Shown here one piece after another: positions 16,954-57,348 of a stretch of DNA of 63,822 bases. The translations under genes were made by a program, and so were the position numbers. Under the pieces are notes generated by a model. That model saw only the letters and a list, made by a program, of their open reading frames with translations, had not been told where the DNA came from and searched no databases. The first letter of the stretch is position 1. Every line of letters starts with the position of its first letter. Location: positions 1 to 63,822 of the forward strand of contig NZ_JARIEF010000051.1 in NCBI RefSeq assembly GCF_029266915.1, written 5' to 3'. The DNA is from Tissierella sp. (GTDB lineage Bacteria > Bacillota > Clostridia > Tissierellales > Tissierellaceae).

Positions 16954-17076
16954 AAGTAAAGATATAAATGGCTAATATTATAAAACTAGCAATTTATTAT
17001 AAGATGATAGTCAAAGGTATATTAGGGTATTAACTATATAAGATAATAAAACCAAAACTTGAAAGGGGCAATTAAA

Positions 17077-17307
17077 ATGAAAAAGATAACTGTATATTCA
17101 ACGAGTACATGACCTTGGTGTACAAAGGTAAAGGCTTACCTAGACGAAAAAGGTGTAGAGTACGAAACGTTTGATGTTGGACAGGATAGAGAAAAAGCTA
17201 TGGAAATGGTCAAAAAATCTAACCAGCAAGGTGTACCGGTAATTGATATAGACGGAAAAATCATAGTAGGATTTAACCAACAAAAACTTGATGAACTCTT
17301 AGCTTAA
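17077..17307 (+). CDS. Selenocysteine-containing glutaredoxin-like protein
   Basis: The reading frame gives a 76-residue glutaredoxin/thioredoxin-fold protein only if the TGA at 17110-17112 is read as selenocysteine. Residue 12 then forms the active site U-P-W-C (12-15), where ordinary glutaredoxins have C-P-x-C. All later family residues follow in frame: the VPVIDIDG cis-proline loop (about 53-60) and GF near the end. An AAAGGGG site precedes the ATG. Directly after the TGA a hairpin, GGTAA / TTACC (17127-17131 with 17136-17140, loop AGGC), sits at the distance expected for a bacterial SECIS. The protein should reduce disulphides in the cytoplasm. A standard gene caller would split it at the TGA and drop its first 12 codons or miss it. 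Confidence 0.92.
17113..17152 (+). promoter_or_regulatory. Putative bacterial SECIS element
   Basis: The sequence right after the UGA folds with an upper stem GGTAA/TTACC (loop AGGC with G early in the loop) and a possible lower stem CCTT/AAGG. Bacterial SECIS hairpins begin within about 10-15 bases of the UGA and bind SelB, which fits. Confidence 0.65.
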
Positions 17308-17390: not shown

Positions 17391-17430
17391 AAAGATCCTG
17401 CATATTAATCTATGCAGGATACTTTTTTGT
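17391..17430. terminator. Intrinsic terminator
   Basis: The stem ATCCTGCATA / TATGCAGGAT is followed by a T run on the plus strand. It ends the glutaredoxin transcript, and the A-rich left flank may also serve the convergent amidohydrolase gene. Confidence 0.8.
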
Positions 17431-19058: not shown

Positions 19059-19272
19059 ATTTCTCCTCTTTTCTATACTGGATTTATAATTAATTTATCT
19101 TAAAATTTGTTGGCATAAAAATATTGATCTTCTTATTTAAACATCCTTATATAGCTACCCTTTTTTTAGCAATATAGTATTTTTTTAGTTGATAAAAACC
19201 ATATAAAGCTATATACTGAATATTAAGAAAGATAGTAAAACTATTTTTAAGATGATGATAGGAGGAATTAAA

Positions 19273-19803
19273 ATGGAAGGTTACATAGTAAAGGAAATAA
19301 AGGATCTTTATACAGTTATTAAACTTAAAGAATTCAGACAAACAGAAGGCGTAAGATTTGATGTTATGGTAGGAGATATGGTGCCGGAGATTCATGCTAT
19401 AGATAGAGTACTACATAAGGGAGGTTCCGTTTCCCCAGGACCTATTGGAGATGTTGAAAGGCCATGGTATATGCATCCGCACCAAGCGGACAATCTTTTA
19501 GTTCTAAGAGGAACTAGACATATTGAGGTATATACTCCAGAACATGGAAAGGTAGAAAAATTTGTAGTTACACCAGAATATGTTGAACATAATGGTGAAA
19601 GGATAGTTGAAGGCGGAGGCCTTGTAGTTTGGCCTACAAATGTTTTCCACAGGATAGTAAGTGAAGAAGATGGATCAGCCTCAGTAAACCTTGCAACTCA
19701 CTATGATGGATTTGATATAAAGACAAATTTTAATATATATGACTTAAATACAGAAACAGGAGAATACAAGCTCTTAAGAGAAGGATATAAGGATCAGAAA
19801 TAA
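19273..19803 (+). CDS. Cupin-fold protein
   Basis: The 176-residue protein has a cupin barrel with histidine pairs in MHPHQADNLLVL (about 63-74) and VFHRIVS (near 125), the usual metal ligands. The layout is broadly similar to cupin dioxygenases or isomerases, but I cannot assign a reaction. I put the start at 19273, eight bases after AGGAGG; an in-frame ATG 21 bases upstream precedes the binding site. It is flanked by a divergent amidohydrolase gene and ends before a long perfect terminator hairpin. Confidence 0.75.
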   Translation: MEGYIVKEIKDLYTVIKLKEFRQTEGVRFDVMVGDMVPEIHAIDRVLHKGGSVSPGPIGDVERPWYMHPHQADNLLVLRGTRHIEVYTPEHGKVEKFVVTPEYVEHNGERIVEGGGLVVWPTNVFHRIVSEEDGSASVNLATHYDGFDIKTNFNIYDLNTETGEYKLLREGYKDQK

Positions 19804-23124: not shown

Positions 23125-24366
23125 ATGAACTTAGATGAATATAATATTGACAAGGAAAATGTAAATATCCAGCCAGTTTTACTTGGAGGAGATATAAACT
23201 GTTACAGTGTAGCACGAGCTTTTCATGAAGCTTATGGCGTAAAATCCATAGCCTATGGAAAGATGGCCCTTGGAGCGACTAAAGACAGCAAGATAATAGA
23301 TTTTAGAATAGATGAAAAAATGACCGGAACTGAAGAAGTTTTAAGAATATTAGATGAAGTAGCCCAAGAGATAAAAGGAAGCAACAAGGTTCCTATTCTG
23401 ATGGGTTGTACTGATGAGTATGCAGAACTTATAATAGACCATAGAGATACCCTGTCAAAGAGCTTTATAACTCCCTATATCCATAAGGAATTAAAAGATA
23501 AGCTAATTGAAAAAGAATCATTTTATGAGATGTGTGAAGAAAAAGGACTATACTATCCTAAGACATACATATTTTCTAAAGGAGACAAGATAATTGATTT
23601 TGAATTTAGTTATCCAGTTATAATAAAACCATCAGATAGTGTTCTATACTGGCAGTTTCCTTTTGAAGGAATGAATAAGGTATATACTGCAAAAAATAAA
23701 GAAGAATTTACAGAAATAACTGATAAGATTTATCAAGGAAAATACAATAAAAACTTGATAATCCAAGACTTTATTCCAGGAGAAGACTCCCAGATGAGAG
23801 TTTTAACCTGCTATTCAGATAGAAATGCAAAGGTCAAGATGATGTGCTTAGGCCACGTACTTCTAGAGGAGCATACTCCTACTGCTATTGGGAACCATGC
23901 TGCAATTATAACTGAGTACGATGAAGACCTTATGAATAAGATAAAAGCATTTTTAGAGGACATCGGATATGTGGGGTATTCAAACTTTGATATCAAGCTT
24001 GACTCCAGAGATAATAAATATAAATTATTTGAAATAAACTTAAGACAGGGAAGAAGCAACTACTATGTAACCGCTTCAGGAAACAATATAGCTAAATATG
24101 TGGTAGAGGACAGAGTACTTGAGAAAAACCTGGAATTTAAGGTTCAGAAAGATCCTTTTTACTGGCACGTAGTTCCAAACGGTGTTGTTTTTAAATACGT
24201 AAAAGATCAGGCCTTGGTTAAGCAAGTTAAGAGTTTGATATCACAGGGGAAGGAAGCTACATCTTTTGGATATAGTAAGGATTTGAGCGGAAACTTTAAG
24301 AGAAGCTTGTATGTCTTCCTATATAATATAAATCAATTTAAGAAATATAAAAAATATTTAGGATAG
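23125..24366 (+). CDS. ATP-grasp carboxylate-amine ligase, D-aspartate-ligase-like
   Basis: The 413-residue protein is an ATP-grasp ligase. Residues such as PVLLGGDINCYSVARAF near the start, MMCLGHVLLEEHTPTAIGN in the middle and FEINLRQGRSNYY (about 305-317) match what I recall of the Enterococcus faecium D-aspartate ligase, which is of nearly the same length. That enzyme attaches D-Asp to the L-Lys side chain of the peptidoglycan precursor. A MurE-type ligase follows and an aspartate/glutamate racemase lies 2.8 kb on, which supports the assignment. The start follows GGAGG. The exact D-amino acid is inferred, not read. Confidence 0.8.
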   Translation: MNLDEYNIDKENVNIQPVLLGGDINCYSVARAFHEAYGVKSIAYGKMALGATKDSKIIDFRIDEKMTGTEEVLRILDEVAQEIKGSNKVPILMGCTDEYAELIIDHRDTLSKSFITPYIHKELKDKLIEKESFYEMCEEKGLYYPKTYIFSKGDKIIDFEFSYPVIIKPSDSVLYWQFPFEGMNKVYTAKNKEEFTEITDKIYQGKYNKNLIIQDFIPGEDSQMRVLTCYSDRNAKVKMMCLGHVLLEEHTPTAIGNHAAIITEYDEDLMNKIKAFLEDIGYVGYSNFDIKLDSRDNKYKLFEINLRQGRSNYYVTASGNNIAKYVVEDRVLEKNLEFKVQKDPFYWHVVPNGVVFKYVKDQALVKQVKSLISQGKEATSFGYSKDLSGNFKRSLYVFLYNINQFKKYKKYLG

Positions 24367-24419
24367 GTTCTACCAGTAGAAATAAAATAGAAACTAATAA
24401 TGTGTAACGGGAGATAAAA

Positions 24420-25904
24420 ATGAAATTAAAAGACTTATTAAAAGATATTGACTTTACTTCAGATAAAAAGATTGAAGAAATAAACAAGATTGAGATAGAA
24501 GATATTTGCTATGACTCTAAGATTGCAGGAGAGAACATGATGTTCACTGCCTTGTTGGGAGAAACTACTGATGGGCATAACTATATAAAGAACGCATATG
24601 AAAAGGGAAGCCGGGTTTTTTTAATCAGCCGTGAAGTAGACCTGCCGGTAGACGCTGTTAAAATTCTAGTTAAGAACACTAGAAAAGTACTATCCCATAT
24701 TTCTTCCAATCTATATAATCATCCTTCAAAAGAACTTAAAATAATTGGAATAACAGGAACTAAAGGAAAGACTACTACAAGTAATTATATAAGAGCAATA
24801 TTTGAAGCGGCAGGTTATAAAACTGGTATCATTGGAACAAATGGAGTTTTTTATGGAGATGTGCAACTAGAGACTGTAAATACTACACCTGAGAGCTATG
24901 AAATACAGAAAATTTTAAGAGCTATGATAGAAGAGGATGTGAAATTCGTAGTCATGGAAGTATCTTCAGGAGGTCTTAAGATGAACCGGGTTGATGATAT
25001 TGAGATTGATCTAGGACTGTTTACAAATATATCAAAAGACCACATAGGGCCTAAGGAACATCCTGACTTTGAAGACTATATGCATTCTAAAGCCAAGCTC
25101 TTTAAACTTGCCAAGCATGCGATTATAAACATAGACGATAAACATAGTACCTATATGATAGATAATGCTACTTGTGGAATAACTACAATATCCAGTGAAG
25201 TTGATTCAGACTTCAGAGCAAAAGACATAGAGCTCTCTGGAAATATAAAAACTTTGGGTTCTAGTTTTACTTGTGTTTCAGAAGATGGAGCTATCGATTA
25301 TAAAATATCTTCTCCTGGAATGTTCAGTATCTACAATGCCCTCTTAAGTATTGCGGCGGCAAGACATTTTAAGATAGAACATTCAACTATAAAAGATGTT
25401 CTAAAAGATGTAAATGTTAGCGGAAGAGTAGAGATACTACCCTTGCTTGACTATGCATCTATAGTGCTGGACTTTGCCCACAATGAGGTAAGTTTGAAAA
25501 ATATAGTTGATACCCTTAACCATTATAATCCCAAAAGGCTGATCTGCTTGATAGGTTCAGTTGGAAACAGATCTATTTTAAGAAGAAAGGAACTGGGTGA
25601 CGTTGCTGCGAGCGAATGCGACGTGTGTATTTTGACATCCGATAATCCAGACTTTGAAGATCCAATGAAGATAATAAATGAAATGAGCGAGTCTTTTTCA
25701 GATTCTGATTGCATATTAATTAAGGAAGCAGATAGAAAACAAGCCATTATAAGAGGGATAAATATGTTAGAAGAGGATGATATACTCCTTTTATCTGGAA
25801 AAGGGCATGAAAATTATCAAATTATAGAAGGCGAAAAAGTTTATTTTAGTGATAAAGAAACTGCAGAAGAAGCTGCAAAGGATCTTTTAAATAGAAAAGT
25901 ATAA
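24420..25904 (+). CDS. murE: MurE-type UDP-MurNAc-tripeptide ligase
   Basis: The 494-residue Mur ligase adds the third amino acid to UDP-MurNAc-L-Ala-D-Glu in the cytoplasm, using ATP. The P loop GTKGKTTT is at 113-120, with GTNGVFY and the TTPES motif that follow it in MurE; ITSDNP-like residues are at 405-410. The position that selects the third amino acid reads DNPD (408-411), whereas meso-DAP enzymes read DNPR. So L-lysine or L-ornithine is the likely substrate. The gene follows the D-Asp-ligase-like gene by 53 bp and probably shares its transcript. Without the rest of the genome I cannot say whether it is the only MurE. Confidence 0.85.
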   Translation: MKLKDLLKDIDFTSDKKIEEINKIEIEDICYDSKIAGENMMFTALLGETTDGHNYIKNAYEKGSRVFLISREVDLPVDAVKILVKNTRKVLSHISSNLYNHPSKELKIIGITGTKGKTTTSNYIRAIFEAAGYKTGIIGTNGVFYGDVQLETVNTTPESYEIQKILRAMIEEDVKFVVMEVSSGGLKMNRVDDIEIDLGLFTNISKDHIGPKEHPDFEDYMHSKAKLFKLAKHAIINIDDKHSTYMIDNATCGITTISSEVDSDFRAKDIELSGNIKTLGSSFTCVSEDGAIDYKISSPGMFSIYNALLSIAAARHFKIEHSTIKDVLKDVNVSGRVEILPLLDYASIVLDFAHNEVSLKNIVDTLNHYNPKRLICLIGSVGNRSILRRKELGDVAASECDVCILTSDNPDFEDPMKIINEMSESFSDSDCILIKEADRKQAIIRGINMLEEDDILLLSGKGHENYQIIEGEKVYFSDKETAEEAAKDLLNRKV

Positions 25905-26076
25905 AAAATGAAATAGTATAAAAACTCTTTGGATAAACAATTTTTGAGATATAAGGGCTCTGATATCCATTAAACTGCTTTAGAATAAGAAGTTATAAGC
26001 AGGATAAAGCTAAAATTAAGACAGAAAAAAGACTTTAAGATAGAGAATTTTAAGATTATGAGGAAGGGGTAAAAAT

Positions 26077-27156
26077 ATGAAGAAAAACTTGCTGAAGATT
26101 TTACTTGCTATATTTGCTGTATCCCTTTTATCAGGATGCAGCGGCAATAAATATAAAAAGTATGAATATACTTTTTTTGATACATTTGATACAGTTACTC
26201 AAATAATAGGTTATACAGAAAGCCAAGAAGAATTTGACTCATATATGACTCAAATTCATGAAAGATCTAAAGATCTCCATAAACTATTTGATAAATATCA
26301 GAACTATGAAGGCTTAAATAACATTAAAACTATAAATGATAATGCAGGGATAAAGCCAGTCAAGGTAGACCGACAAATTATAGATTTGTTGCTATTTTCA
26401 AACGAATGGTATTATAAAGCTGGTCAAGTAACCAATATAGCTATGGGGCCTGTAATAAAAGTCTGGTCTGACTACCGAGATAAAGCTATAGAAGATCCAG
26501 AAAAAGCTAGCTTGCCTGCAAGAGAAGAGTTAGAAGAAGCAGCAAAATATACTGATATTGAAAAAGTTATAATTGATGAAAAAGCCAGTACTGTTTTTCT
26601 GCAAGAAAAGAATATGATGTTGGACTTAGGATCCGTAGCAAAGGGCTACTCTGTAGAACTCATCGCACAAGAGATAGAAGAAGCAGGACTGAAATCAGCT
26701 CTTATAAGCGGAGGCGGTAATATAAGATCTATTGGTAAGCCCGTGGAAGGAAACAAGGAAAGATGGGGAATTGGAATACAAAACCCTGATCCTGAATTAA
26801 TAGACAAAGGCAATGTTTTAGAAACTCTTTTTGTAAATGAGTCTTCAGTTGTAAGTAGCGGAGATTATCAAAGATACTTTATGGTAGATGAAAAAGTATA
26901 TCATCACATTATAGATCCAAATACTTTAATGCCGGGAGACTATTATAGAGCTATTACTATAGTTACACCAGACTCGGGAGTTGCAGACTTTCTTTCTACT
27001 TCAGCATTTTTACTTCCATTTGAAGAAAGCTTGGCTCTGATAGAATCTATTGATGATACAGAAGCTTTTTGGGTTATGAATGATGGAAGTATAAGGACTA
27101 GTGAGGGGATGAATGCTCTTATGCTTAGCGAAGGTGCTTCTGGCGGAAAAAAATAA
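26077..27156 (+). CDS. apbE: FAD:protein FMN transferase lipoprotein
   Basis: This 359-residue ApbE-family protein attaches FMN to a threonine of partner proteins outside the cell membrane, such as RnfD/RnfG or NqrB/C subunits. It has a lipoprotein signal with lipobox LLSG-C21. The family motifs are TFFDTFDTVTQI near the start, LDLGSVAKGYSVE (about 185-197, the flavin-binding segment), SGGGNIRSIG, and HHIIDPNTLMPG. The start follows AGGGG. It ends 13 bp before the racemase gene. No flavinylated Rnf subunit is encoded in this window. Confidence 0.92.
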   Translation: MKKNLLKILLAIFAVSLLSGCSGNKYKKYEYTFFDTFDTVTQIIGYTESQEEFDSYMTQIHERSKDLHKLFDKYQNYEGLNNIKTINDNAGIKPVKVDRQIIDLLLFSNEWYYKAGQVTNIAMGPVIKVWSDYRDKAIEDPEKASLPAREELEEAAKYTDIEKVIIDEKASTVFLQEKNMMLDLGSVAKGYSVELIAQEIEEAGLKSALISGGGNIRSIGKPVEGNKERWGIGIQNPDPELIDKGNVLETLFVNESSVVSSGDYQRYFMVDEKVYHHIIDPNTLMPGDYYRAITIVTPDSGVADFLSTSAFLLPFEESLALIESIDDTEAFWVMNDGSIRTSEGMNALMLSEGASGGKK

Positions 27157-27169
27157 AAGGTGGTATATT

Positions 27170-27883
27170 ATGAAAAAACTTGGAATATTAGGCGGTATGG
27201 GACCTTTGCCTACAATAAAACTATTTGAAATGATAGTGTCTATGACTGACGCAAACCGAGATCAAGATCATATTCATATAATAATAGATAATAATACTAA
27301 GATTCCCGATAGAACTTCCTTTTTATTAGACAACAATAAAGAGAGTCCGGTTATATCTTTAGTAGAATCAGCAAAGATGCTGGAAAAAGCTGGATCCGAT
27401 TTGATAGTTATGCCCTGCAACACTGCTCACTACTATTATAAGGAGTTAAAAGAAGCTGTAGAGATACCATTTTTAAATATGATAGAAGAAACAGCTATCT
27501 GGATAAAGAAAAACCATCCTGAGCTTAAAAATATAGGACTTTTAGCAACGGACGGAACTATAAGAGCTGGAATATATGATAATATATTTTTAAACTATGG
27601 AATAAATATAGTAAAACCTTCAGAGGGAAAACAAAAATATATATATGACTTAATATATAATTTAAAAGAAAACAAAGAACAAAAAGATTTAGAGGGAATC
27701 TATAGAGCCATGGAAGAAATAGAAGCTCAAGGTGCAGAAGTTTTTATAGCGGGTTGTACTGAGGTTTCAGTAGCCCTGGATACTTTTAAAATAAAAGGTG
27801 ATTTTATAGATCCGATGAAAATAATAGCAGAAAGATCTATAGAAATGGTTGGAGCAAAACTTAAGACCAGCTATAAACTTTAA
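27170..27883 (+). CDS. Aspartate/glutamate racemase family protein
   Basis: The 237-residue protein is a cofactor-independent amino-acid racemase. Both catalytic cysteines are present, C83 in MPCNTAHYY and C196 in AGCTEVSVAL. The opening GILGGMGPLPT is typical of the aspartate racemase branch. I set the start at 27170, nine bases after AAGGTGG; an upstream in-frame ATG lies inside apbE. Its position near a D-Asp-ligase-like gene suggests it supplies D-aspartate for peptidoglycan bridges. The stop codon lies in the loop of a terminator hairpin. Confidence 0.86.
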   Translation: MKKLGILGGMGPLPTIKLFEMIVSMTDANRDQDHIHIIIDNNTKIPDRTSFLLDNNKESPVISLVESAKMLEKAGSDLIVMPCNTAHYYYKELKEAVEIPFLNMIEETAIWIKKNHPELKNIGLLATDGTIRAGIYDNIFLNYGINIVKPSEGKQKYIYDLIYNLKENKEQKDLEGIYRAMEEIEAQGAEVFIAGCTEVSVALDTFKIKGDFIDPMKIIAERSIEMVGAKLKTSYKL

Positions 27884-27905
27884 GGTTTATAGCTGGTTTT
27901 TCTAA
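27863..27905 (+). terminator. Intrinsic terminator overlapping the racemase stop
   Basis: The stem ACCAGCTATAAAC / GTTTATAGCTGGT carries a T run after it. The TAA stop lies in its loop. Confidence 0.85.
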
Positions 27906-27990
27906 AGCTTTAAAATGAGATTCAAAGAAAAAGGGTAGTTTAAGGAGAAAATGGATAAGTATAGACTAGGACAAACTAAGGAGGAATAAA

Positions 27991-28491
27991 ATGTATAAAT
28001 ACAGCCAAGAAGAATTAACAAAGACCGCTATTGATATGTTAAATAAAAGAGGAGTAACTTTAAAAGATATTGCACTTCTAGTTATGTATCTTCAAAAACA
28101 ATATTATGAAGATTTGACAGTTGAGATATGTATTGAGAACTTAAAGAAAGTTTTAGAAAAGAGAGAAATAGTTCATGCTATTTTGACAGGTATAGCACTG
28201 GACGAATTAGCTGAAAAGAAATTGCTGCCAGAACCTCTTCAAACTATAGTTGCAACGGACGAGAGTTTGTATGGTATAGATGAGATAATACCGCTATCGA
28301 TTGTAAATGTTTATGGTACAATAGGTCTTACAAATTATGGATATCTCGACAAAGAGAAGATTGGTATTATTAAAGATTTAGATTTCCAAAAAGGAGAAGA
28401 GTGCAATACCTTCTTAGATGACTTGGTAGCAGCACTAGCAGCTGCTACTGCAAGCAGAATAGCTCATTCAAGAACTGAGCATTATATTTAA
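27991..28491 (+). CDS. PgpA-like (YutG-type) phosphatase-family protein
   Basis: The 166-residue protein resembles the soluble YutG branch of phosphatidylglycerophosphatase A. Family signs are a helical N terminus (VTLKDIALLVMYLQKQYYEDLT), DESLYGIDEIIPLSIVNVYGTIGLTNYGYLDK in the middle and FLDDLVAALAAATASRIAH at the end. It has no strong membrane helix, unlike Escherichia coli PgpA. A role in phospholipid dephosphorylation is possible but unproved for this branch. The start follows AGGAGG. It is monocistronic between two terminators. Confidence 0.75.
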   Translation: MYKYSQEELTKTAIDMLNKRGVTLKDIALLVMYLQKQYYEDLTVEICIENLKKVLEKREIVHAILTGIALDELAEKKLLPEPLQTIVATDESLYGIDEIIPLSIVNVYGTIGLTNYGYLDKEKIGIIKDLDFQKGEECNTFLDDLVAALAAATASRIAHSRTEHYI

Positions 28492-28608: not shown

Positions 28609-29505
28609 TTATAAAAACTCTCCAATAGTTTCTATTAATTCTACACATACATCCAGAGTTTTTTTATCGTAATCTAAATCTGGATTAAGTTCTACAAAAT
28701 CTATAGATTTTACAAAATCCTCTCGTAAAATAGTTTCTAAGATAGTATTTGCTTCAGCTAAGGTAAAACCTCCCTCTACTGGTGTTCCGGTTCCCGGAAC
28801 CAAGTCTTTATCTAAAGAGTCTATATCAAAACTTAAATGCACTGCATCTACATCTGAATTTCTTATACTTTCTATTACAGTATTTAAAATATCCTTTAAA
28901 CCTTTTTCGCGGATTTTATCCATTGTATAAAGATTGATTTTATTATCTTCTGCTATTTTTATCTCGCCTTCATCCAAATCTCTTGCGCCTATAATATATA
29001 CGTCTTTAGGGGATACTTTTTCTCCTTGAAAATATATATTAGTTAATTTAGAATCACCTATATCCATCGATACTGCTAGAGGCATACCGTGTATGTTTCC
29101 AGATGGTGAAGAAGCAGAATCATTTATATCACCATGGGCATCTACCCAAACTACAGCTATCTTCTTAAAAAACTTACTAGCACCAGCTATACTACCCATT
29201 CCTAAAGCATGATCTCCTCCTATTATAAGTGGAAGTGAACCGCCTTTTAAAGAAGAATAAACTAGGTGGGCCAAATTTTCATTTACATCTACTATTGTAT
29301 TTAAATATTTCATATTTGGATGATCTTTAAATTTATCCTCTTTTGATACAAAGGGTACAAAAATATTACCCATATCATAAACCTTGTTCCTTTGAGAAGT
29401 AAGTTTTTCAACTATACCAAGTTCTCTTAGCTTATCGGGGCCAAATTCTACTCCATCTCTATCACAGCCATATTTTAGAGGAACTCCTATTATATTAATG
29501 TTCAT
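28609..29505 (-). CDS. rocF: Arginase
   Basis: The 298-residue ureohydrolase splits L-arginine to ornithine and urea using two manganese ions. The metal-binding blocks are GGDHALGMG (about 96-104), WVDAHGDIN (about 119-127), HGMPLAVSMD, and SFDIDSLDKDLVPGTGTP (about 220-237). The ending YDKKTLDVCVELIETI is typical of arginase rather than agmatinase. The start follows AGGGAGGG. It stands alone; no arginine or proline pathway genes are adjacent. The ornithine product could feed amino-acid fermentation or an ornithine-type cell wall, which is speculative. Confidence 0.88.
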   Translation of the reverse strand: MNINIIGVPLKYGCDRDGVEFGPDKLRELGIVEKLTSQRNKVYDMGNIFVPFVSKEDKFKDHPNMKYLNTIVDVNENLAHLVYSSLKGGSLPLIIGGDHALGMGSIAGASKFFKKIAVVWVDAHGDINDSASSPSGNIHGMPLAVSMDIGDSKLTNIYFQGEKVSPKDVYIIGARDLDEGEIKIAEDNKINLYTMDKIREKGLKDILNTVIESIRNSDVDAVHLSFDIDSLDKDLVPGTGTPVEGGFTLAEANTILETILREDFVKSIDFVELNPDLDYDKKTLDVCVELIETIGEFL

Positions 29506-34786: not shown

Positions 34787-35005
34787 AAAAGGGTGTTTCT
34801 CTCCTGAAAGGACGAGAAACACCCGTGGTACCACCTTAATTTGCACAAAGCCTCAATTTCCTGTAACGTGGAAAGAATACGCAATAGACAACTATTGAAA
34901 CTCCAGACATGTAATTCGCTTAAAATTAAGTTATAGACCTTCCACCGCTAGTCTATTCTCTATATTTAACTAAAATCAAGCTACTTTTATCTTTCACAGT
35001 TTTAT
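34787..35005 (-). ncRNA. T-box leader of tyrS, tyrosine specific
   Basis: On the minus strand, the T-box sequence AAGGTGGTACCACG (34837-34824) precedes a terminator stem GGGTGTTTCTC / GAGAAACACCC (34824-34791) and a run of T. Upstream is a stem I region with AGAGAATAGA-like and GGTGGAAGG-like elements. The specifier loop reads GAATTACATG, in which TAC (34913-34911) is a tyrosine codon. Uncharged tRNA-Tyr would stabilise the antiterminator and allow tyrS transcription. Confidence 0.92.
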
Positions 35006-35018
35006 ATTATTTACTAGT

Positions 35019-57131: not shown

Positions 57132-57252
57132 ATTAATTGGGTAGTATATAAGCACATGAATCAATGGATATATAGATTATGTATTAATTCGAATTTTGAT
57201 CCTTAGATTAAGTAATGAATACTCGTGGCTTAAGTCATGAGAAGTTGAGAAG

Positions 57253-57334
57253 CTGGTATCTTAAGGGAACTAGACTTTTTTATAAAAAAGAAACAACCAG
57301 TAAAAAATACGACTGGTATCTTAAAAGAACTAGA
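57253..57334 (+). repeat. Two 22-bp direct repeats exactly 60 bp apart upstream of the S component
   Basis: CTGGTATCTTAAGGGAACTA begins at 57253 and CTGGTATCTTAAAAGAACTA at 57313; the 22-bp units differ only at two bases. The second copy ends two bases before the ribosome-binding site of the transporter gene. They could be operator sites or part of a leader RNA that can fold two ways; I recognise no known riboswitch. Confidence 0.7.
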
Positions 57335-57348
57335 GCGGAGGGGTTATA

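Follow-up and report, generated by a model that had tools for sequence, protein, structure and literature searches.

A candidate selenocysteine-containing YruB/Cp9-type redoxin gene in Tissierella sp. and its possible connection with peroxiredoxins

Glutaredoxins that carry selenocysteine (Sec) at their active site have been described before. A list from 2006 includes two from Alkaliphilus metalliredigenes and one each from Geobacter sulfurreducens and Moorella thermoacetica (PMC1794560), and cGrx1 of Clostridium (Alkaliphilus) oremlandii OhILAs (PDB 7c10, 7c12), a native selenoprotein with Sec as the first residue of a UPxC site, has been proposed as the reductant of a Sec-containing methionine sulphoxide reductase A (MsrA) (PMC7642778). 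The Cp9/YruB redoxins are proteins of 75-80 residues with mostly CP[YW]C sites, and the gene of Cp9 in C. pasteurianum lies between a thioredoxin reductase gene and a peroxiredoxin gene (PMC3720550). BC3987 of Bacillus cereus (PDB 3zij) has a CPPC site without Sec and has been described as nearer to the redoxins that reduce peroxiredoxins than to NrdH (PMC3720550). The UXX-star selenoproteins (NF041212, NF041114 and NF041211) are likewise glutaredoxin-like and often contain Sec. Sec glutaredoxins are thus already known, as the earlier note on this DNA had said of clostridia; the redoxin described here adds a member in a clade apparently apart from cGrx1.

The gene lies in a window of 63,822 nucleotides, the whole stretch of DNA that was analysed, which belongs to a draft assembly of Tissierella sp. 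(88.9% complete, 6.8% contamination). It runs from ATG to TAA on the forward strand (17077-17307), comprises 76 codons plus the stop and contains exactly one in-frame TGA, codon 12 (17110-17112), which confirms the 77-codon frame reported earlier. With this TGA read as U, the product is MKKITVYSTSTUPWCTKVKAYLDEKGVEYETFDVGQDREKAMEMVKKSNQQGVPVIDIDGKIIVGFNQQKLDELLA; comparison with orthologues makes codon 12 the predicted Sec codon and the first position of a U-P-W-C site, whose resolving Cys is encoded by codon 15 (TGT, 17119-17121, forward strand) and is invariant in the alignment. A ribosome-binding-like AAAGGGG (17062-17068, forward strand) can be read upstream, with the ATG 8 nt downstream of it, and the relatives have GGAGG-like sites at the equivalent position. 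Beyond the gene, an intrinsic-terminator-like hairpin (17395-17420, forward strand) combines a 10-bp stem with a T run, ACTTTTTTGT. The gene is absent from the ordinary list of open reading frames at the 60-residue level, in line with the expectation that standard annotation would miss it. Within the window, frames that stay open past a TGA are not in themselves unusual; the signal exceeds chance here because homology extends over both sides of the codon. The other TGA frames listed in the window look, by eye, like upstream extensions of ordinary genes or like frames antisense to them, and were set aside as candidates for readthrough.

Orthologues provide a direct view of the residue at this codon. 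In the same taxonomic family the gene occurs in 13 of 28 genomes, with TGA at the codon in 11 and TGT in two; TGA at the same codon is thereby found in ten other species of the family, and it recurs in one distant genome (G089, locus L129). TGT or TGC occupies the position in 26 orthologues, Cys being the sole substitute seen. Of the other orthologues that were read from 391 genomes sampled across the class, all encode Cys (CPWC, CPYC and one CSWC) apart from the one in G089 with TGA. Close relatives do not have a plain stop with no conservation after codon 12, the pattern named beforehand as speaking against Sec: they keep the TGA, and the protein is conserved on either side of it. After the TGA, comparison with the copy from the same genus gives a dN of 0.17 and a dS of 0.89, values which indicate that purifying selection on the coding sequence is continued beyond this codon. 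In two sister copies, L027 (genome G026) and L032 (genome G006), TGT replaces TGA; the hairpin described below is perfect in L027, which is placed among the Sec genes in the tree, and decayed in L032, so that the pair looks like the outcome of a recent Sec-to-Cys change. Plasmid and phage collections yielded just relatives of less than 60% identity, and one plasmid match (Acetoanaerobium noterae) had no annotation for comparison.

The RNA downstream of the UGA contains a candidate SECIS hairpin. Its apical stem-loop, identified by comparative pairing (17126-17141, forward strand), starts 13 nt past the TGA and consists of a 6-bp stem, AGGUAA with UUACCU, closed by the loop AGGC (17132-17135) at a UGA-to-loop spacing of 19 nt. 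This stem can be formed in all 12 TGA genes, as AGGUAA/UUACCU or, in three of them, as AAGUAA/UUACUU, and the four-base loop, AGGC in the window and AGGA or UGGA elsewhere, follows 19 nt after the UGA. All stem cells (100%) are paired in the 12 Sec genes, compared with 70.7% in 25 distinct Cys sequences, and six Watson-Crick pairs are present in 11 of the 12 Sec genes compared with a single one of 26 Cys genes, L027. Across the Sec genes, one pair has changed on both sides and one has changed to G-U. Synonymous codons are kept at a fraction of 0.74 in codons 13-22 of Sec genes and 0.47 thereafter; the corresponding values for Cys genes are 0.51 and 0.43. Earlier, a hairpin had been placed immediately after the TGA. 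An ACCUU/AAGGU hairpin can indeed be formed there in the window sequence, but it is not kept in relatives, and the conserved element is the one at 17126-17141. The latter may cap a longer helix (17113-17153, forward strand), suggested by minimum free energy, in which CCUU (17113-17116) pairs with AAGG (17150-17153); some relatives lack this lower stem.

The loop, the 6 bp and the 19 nt agree with the loop, stem and spacing rules of a bacterial SECIS model, which also includes a minimum free energy of at most -7.5 kcal/mol (PMC13188914); the calculated energies are -8.5 kcal/mol for 42 nt after the UGA, -5.5 for 36 nt and -6.5 for 17110-17152, and hence lie below that value for some lengths only. 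Folded as a single sequence, the RNA is no more stable than its shuffles (z -0.29), which is why comparative pairing was used for the SECIS. With G-U pairs allowed, 17-41% of codon-shuffled versions can form the stem, against 2-5% with Watson-Crick pairs only; since the hairpin is not rare in shuffles with G-U pairs, weight was instead given to the Watson-Crick count and to the contrast between Sec and Cys genes. In G001 and G089 the minimum-energy prediction is a fold other than the conserved hairpin, and an Rfam scan of the window returned no SECIS-type match.

The bacterium appears equipped to decode such a codon. One contig of the assembly (C99) carries, in a row, selD (23761-24687, L016), selA (24825-26195), selB (26238-28130) and the gene for tRNA-Sec, selC, with anticodon TCA (29013-29105). 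The TGA in the SGUGGK active site of selD indicates that it is itself a selenoprotein gene. The earlier note had supposed SelA, SelB, SelC and SelD and had taken a lack of selC or selB as evidence to the contrary; these genes were looked for and are present, clustered on a contig other than that of the redoxin gene. Among 60 relatives, SelB scores over its cut-off in 54, including all carriers of the TGA form in that sample.

Two readings of the TGA compete with Sec. The codon could act as a true stop or result from a sequencing error, which would make the gene a pseudogene or a Cys redoxin of the usual sort; one base change separates TGA from TGT or TGC, and the assembly is a draft. The same TGA in 11 further genomes, the purifying selection after it and a hairpin confined to TGA genes render this very improbable. 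Still more remote is a genome-wide reassignment of TGA to another amino acid such as Trp (code 4), which has the open frame after the TGA on its side and nothing else, and which is at odds both with Cys as the only replacement among orthologues and with the presence of selA, selB, selD and a tRNA-Sec with anticodon TCA. Because orthologues, selection after the TGA, RNA hairpin and sel machinery all agree, we regard it as almost certain that UGA codon 12 is decoded as Sec, as had been proposed, and that this is a selenoprotein gene.

What kind of redoxin the gene encodes can be judged from profiles and predicted structure. The product matches the Pfam Glutaredoxin profile over all 60 positions (E 3.1e-20), and AlphaFold2, run with 14 relatives, predicts a full redoxin fold (beta-alpha-beta-alpha-beta-beta-alpha, mean pLDDT 89) with U-P-W-C at the start of helix 1. 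The earlier description as a glutaredoxin was right in the completeness of the fold and loose in the name: the score for the YruB family TIGR02196 (104.3 bits) is over its cut-off of 88.55, whereas those for the glutathione-dependent Grx3 type TIGR02181 (56.7; cut-off 90), NrdH TIGR02194 (48.4; cut-off 85.75) and UXX-star NF041212 (57.3; cut-off 66) are under theirs, as are those for the other two UXX-star models. The protein is hence better called a YruB/Cp9-type redoxin, for which a link to thioredoxin reductase is more likely than one to glutathione. It has the CP[YW]C-type site of the Cp9/YruB redoxins with the first Cys replaced by Sec, and its gene, unlike that of Cp9, does not adjoin thioredoxin reductase and peroxiredoxin genes. 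The top PDB fold matches include BC3987 (TM about 0.89) and cGrx1, the latter ranking first in the PDB both by sequence (E 5.4e-14) and by fold. Both cGrx1 and the present protein are small, of comparable length and from Sec-decoding clostridia, but cGrx1 reads UPHC rather than UPWC.

In a phylogenetic tree based on 79 columns and flagged for long branches, the clade of the window redoxin splits off at 99/95 support with cGrx1 outside, and the two are apparently separate. The tree suggests eight switches between Cys and Sec, at least three of them forced by well-supported branches. A literature search found no paper on Sec in the window redoxin's clade, an absence that is no proof of there being none. 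Further redoxins with in-frame TGA codons were encountered. Elsewhere in the order, a UPHC, cGrx1-like group of Sec redoxins (L073-L080) is represented in seven genomes, mostly beside a Cys paralogue, and has a different sequence after the TGA, CCTTTCGGAG or similar. Seven loci from Binatia-type metagenome-assembled genomes, one of them labelled Desulfurellaceae (L064-L070), read MKKITVYSTDY-TGA-GFC and are likely to represent another Sec redoxin, UGFC. Divergent UPHC sequences with the TGA inside longer frames of 123 and 145 residues (L081, G020:C1:1667390-1667611; L083, G054:C3:60776-60979) may form a separate, fused redoxin family.

The assembly contains plausible partners for the redoxin. 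A thioredoxin reductase (L144) scores over its curated cut-off and is followed by a thioredoxin-like frame. Three of five AhpC/TSA-type matches have TGA at the peroxidatic position (L153, C36:4375-4764; L154, C68:5707-6090; L155, C93:10303-10698), in the contexts DFTVVUPTEL, DNTPGUTNEA and DFTFVUATEI; these are probable Sec peroxiredoxins, all encoded on contigs other than that of the redoxin gene. The earlier suggestion that Sec serves disulphide or peroxide chemistry gains support from them in its peroxide part. One of the TGA peroxiredoxin genes lies near a frame which, by eye, resembles a PerR/Fur regulator. For glutamate-cysteine ligase, no PF04262 match was found in the 88.9% complete assembly, and glutathione uptake is possible. 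Gene neighbourhoods, compared over 14 loci, are not conserved between genera, indicate no functional link and were therefore dropped as a guide to function.

These observations are consistent with the following scheme. SelB and tRNA-Sec, helped by the downstream hairpin, would decode UGA codon 12 to give a U-P-W-C redoxin, whose selenolate at position 12 would attack a disulphide or selenenyl sulphide of the target; the mixed bond thus formed would be resolved by Cys15, and thioredoxin reductase would return the oxidised pair to the reduced state, as the family assignment suggests. The likeliest targets would be peroxiredoxins, three of them apparently selenoproteins, so that reducing power could pass from thioredoxin reductase through the Sec redoxin to a (Sec) peroxiredoxin and finally to peroxide. 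We infer such a role between thioredoxin reductase and peroxiredoxin with slightly better than even confidence. The same Sec protein could instead receive its electrons from glutathione or another small thiol, with MsrA as its main target, as proposed for cGrx1. Two MsrA genes (L133, L134) occur in the assembly, and cGrx1, the best match in sequence and fold, is linked to a Sec MsrA (PMC7642778); both MsrA genes here are Cys forms, however, which led us to reject a pairing of Sec redoxin with Sec MsrA of the kind proposed in C. oremlandii, and with cGrx1 in another group of the tree and no glutamate-cysteine ligase match in the draft assembly, we consider a glutathione- and MsrA-based role unlikely. 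A different role altogether would suit a neighbourhood that points to no single pathway: the protein might, for example, reduce other Sec enzymes, act on disulphides in general or take part in the handling of metals or metalloids. The related UXX-star proteins are thought to handle metals (PMC13188914); the redoxin scores under the UXX-star cut-off and retains its resolving Cys, and this option seems less probable again.

Taken as a whole, a Sec redoxin that is reduced by thioredoxin reductase and serves (Sec-)peroxiredoxins without a recognised glutathione pathway is the explanation that we favour, with reasonable though limited confidence. Only tentatively can it be suggested that CPWC/UPWC redoxins gained Sec separately from the cGrx1 type and that one Sec redoxin serves several Sec peroxiredoxins in a glutathione-free relay, a proposal on whose correctness we would not count; if it were true, two consecutive steps in the removal of peroxide would make use of selenium. 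Three TGA peroxiredoxins and a Sec redoxin in one genome provide a testable case of selenium being used twice in one pathway. The gene also adds an easily missed, well-supported selenoprotein to a redoxin clade that is otherwise mostly of the Cys form, and its close Cys sisters (in G006 and G026) allow a natural comparison of what is gained by having Sec.

Elsewhere in the window, a T-box leader (34805-35006, reverse strand) and a pan motif (57250-57341, forward strand) score over their Rfam gathering thresholds, and a frame of 183 residues (19252-19803, forward strand), with no Pfam match at 1e-5, has a cupin-like look.
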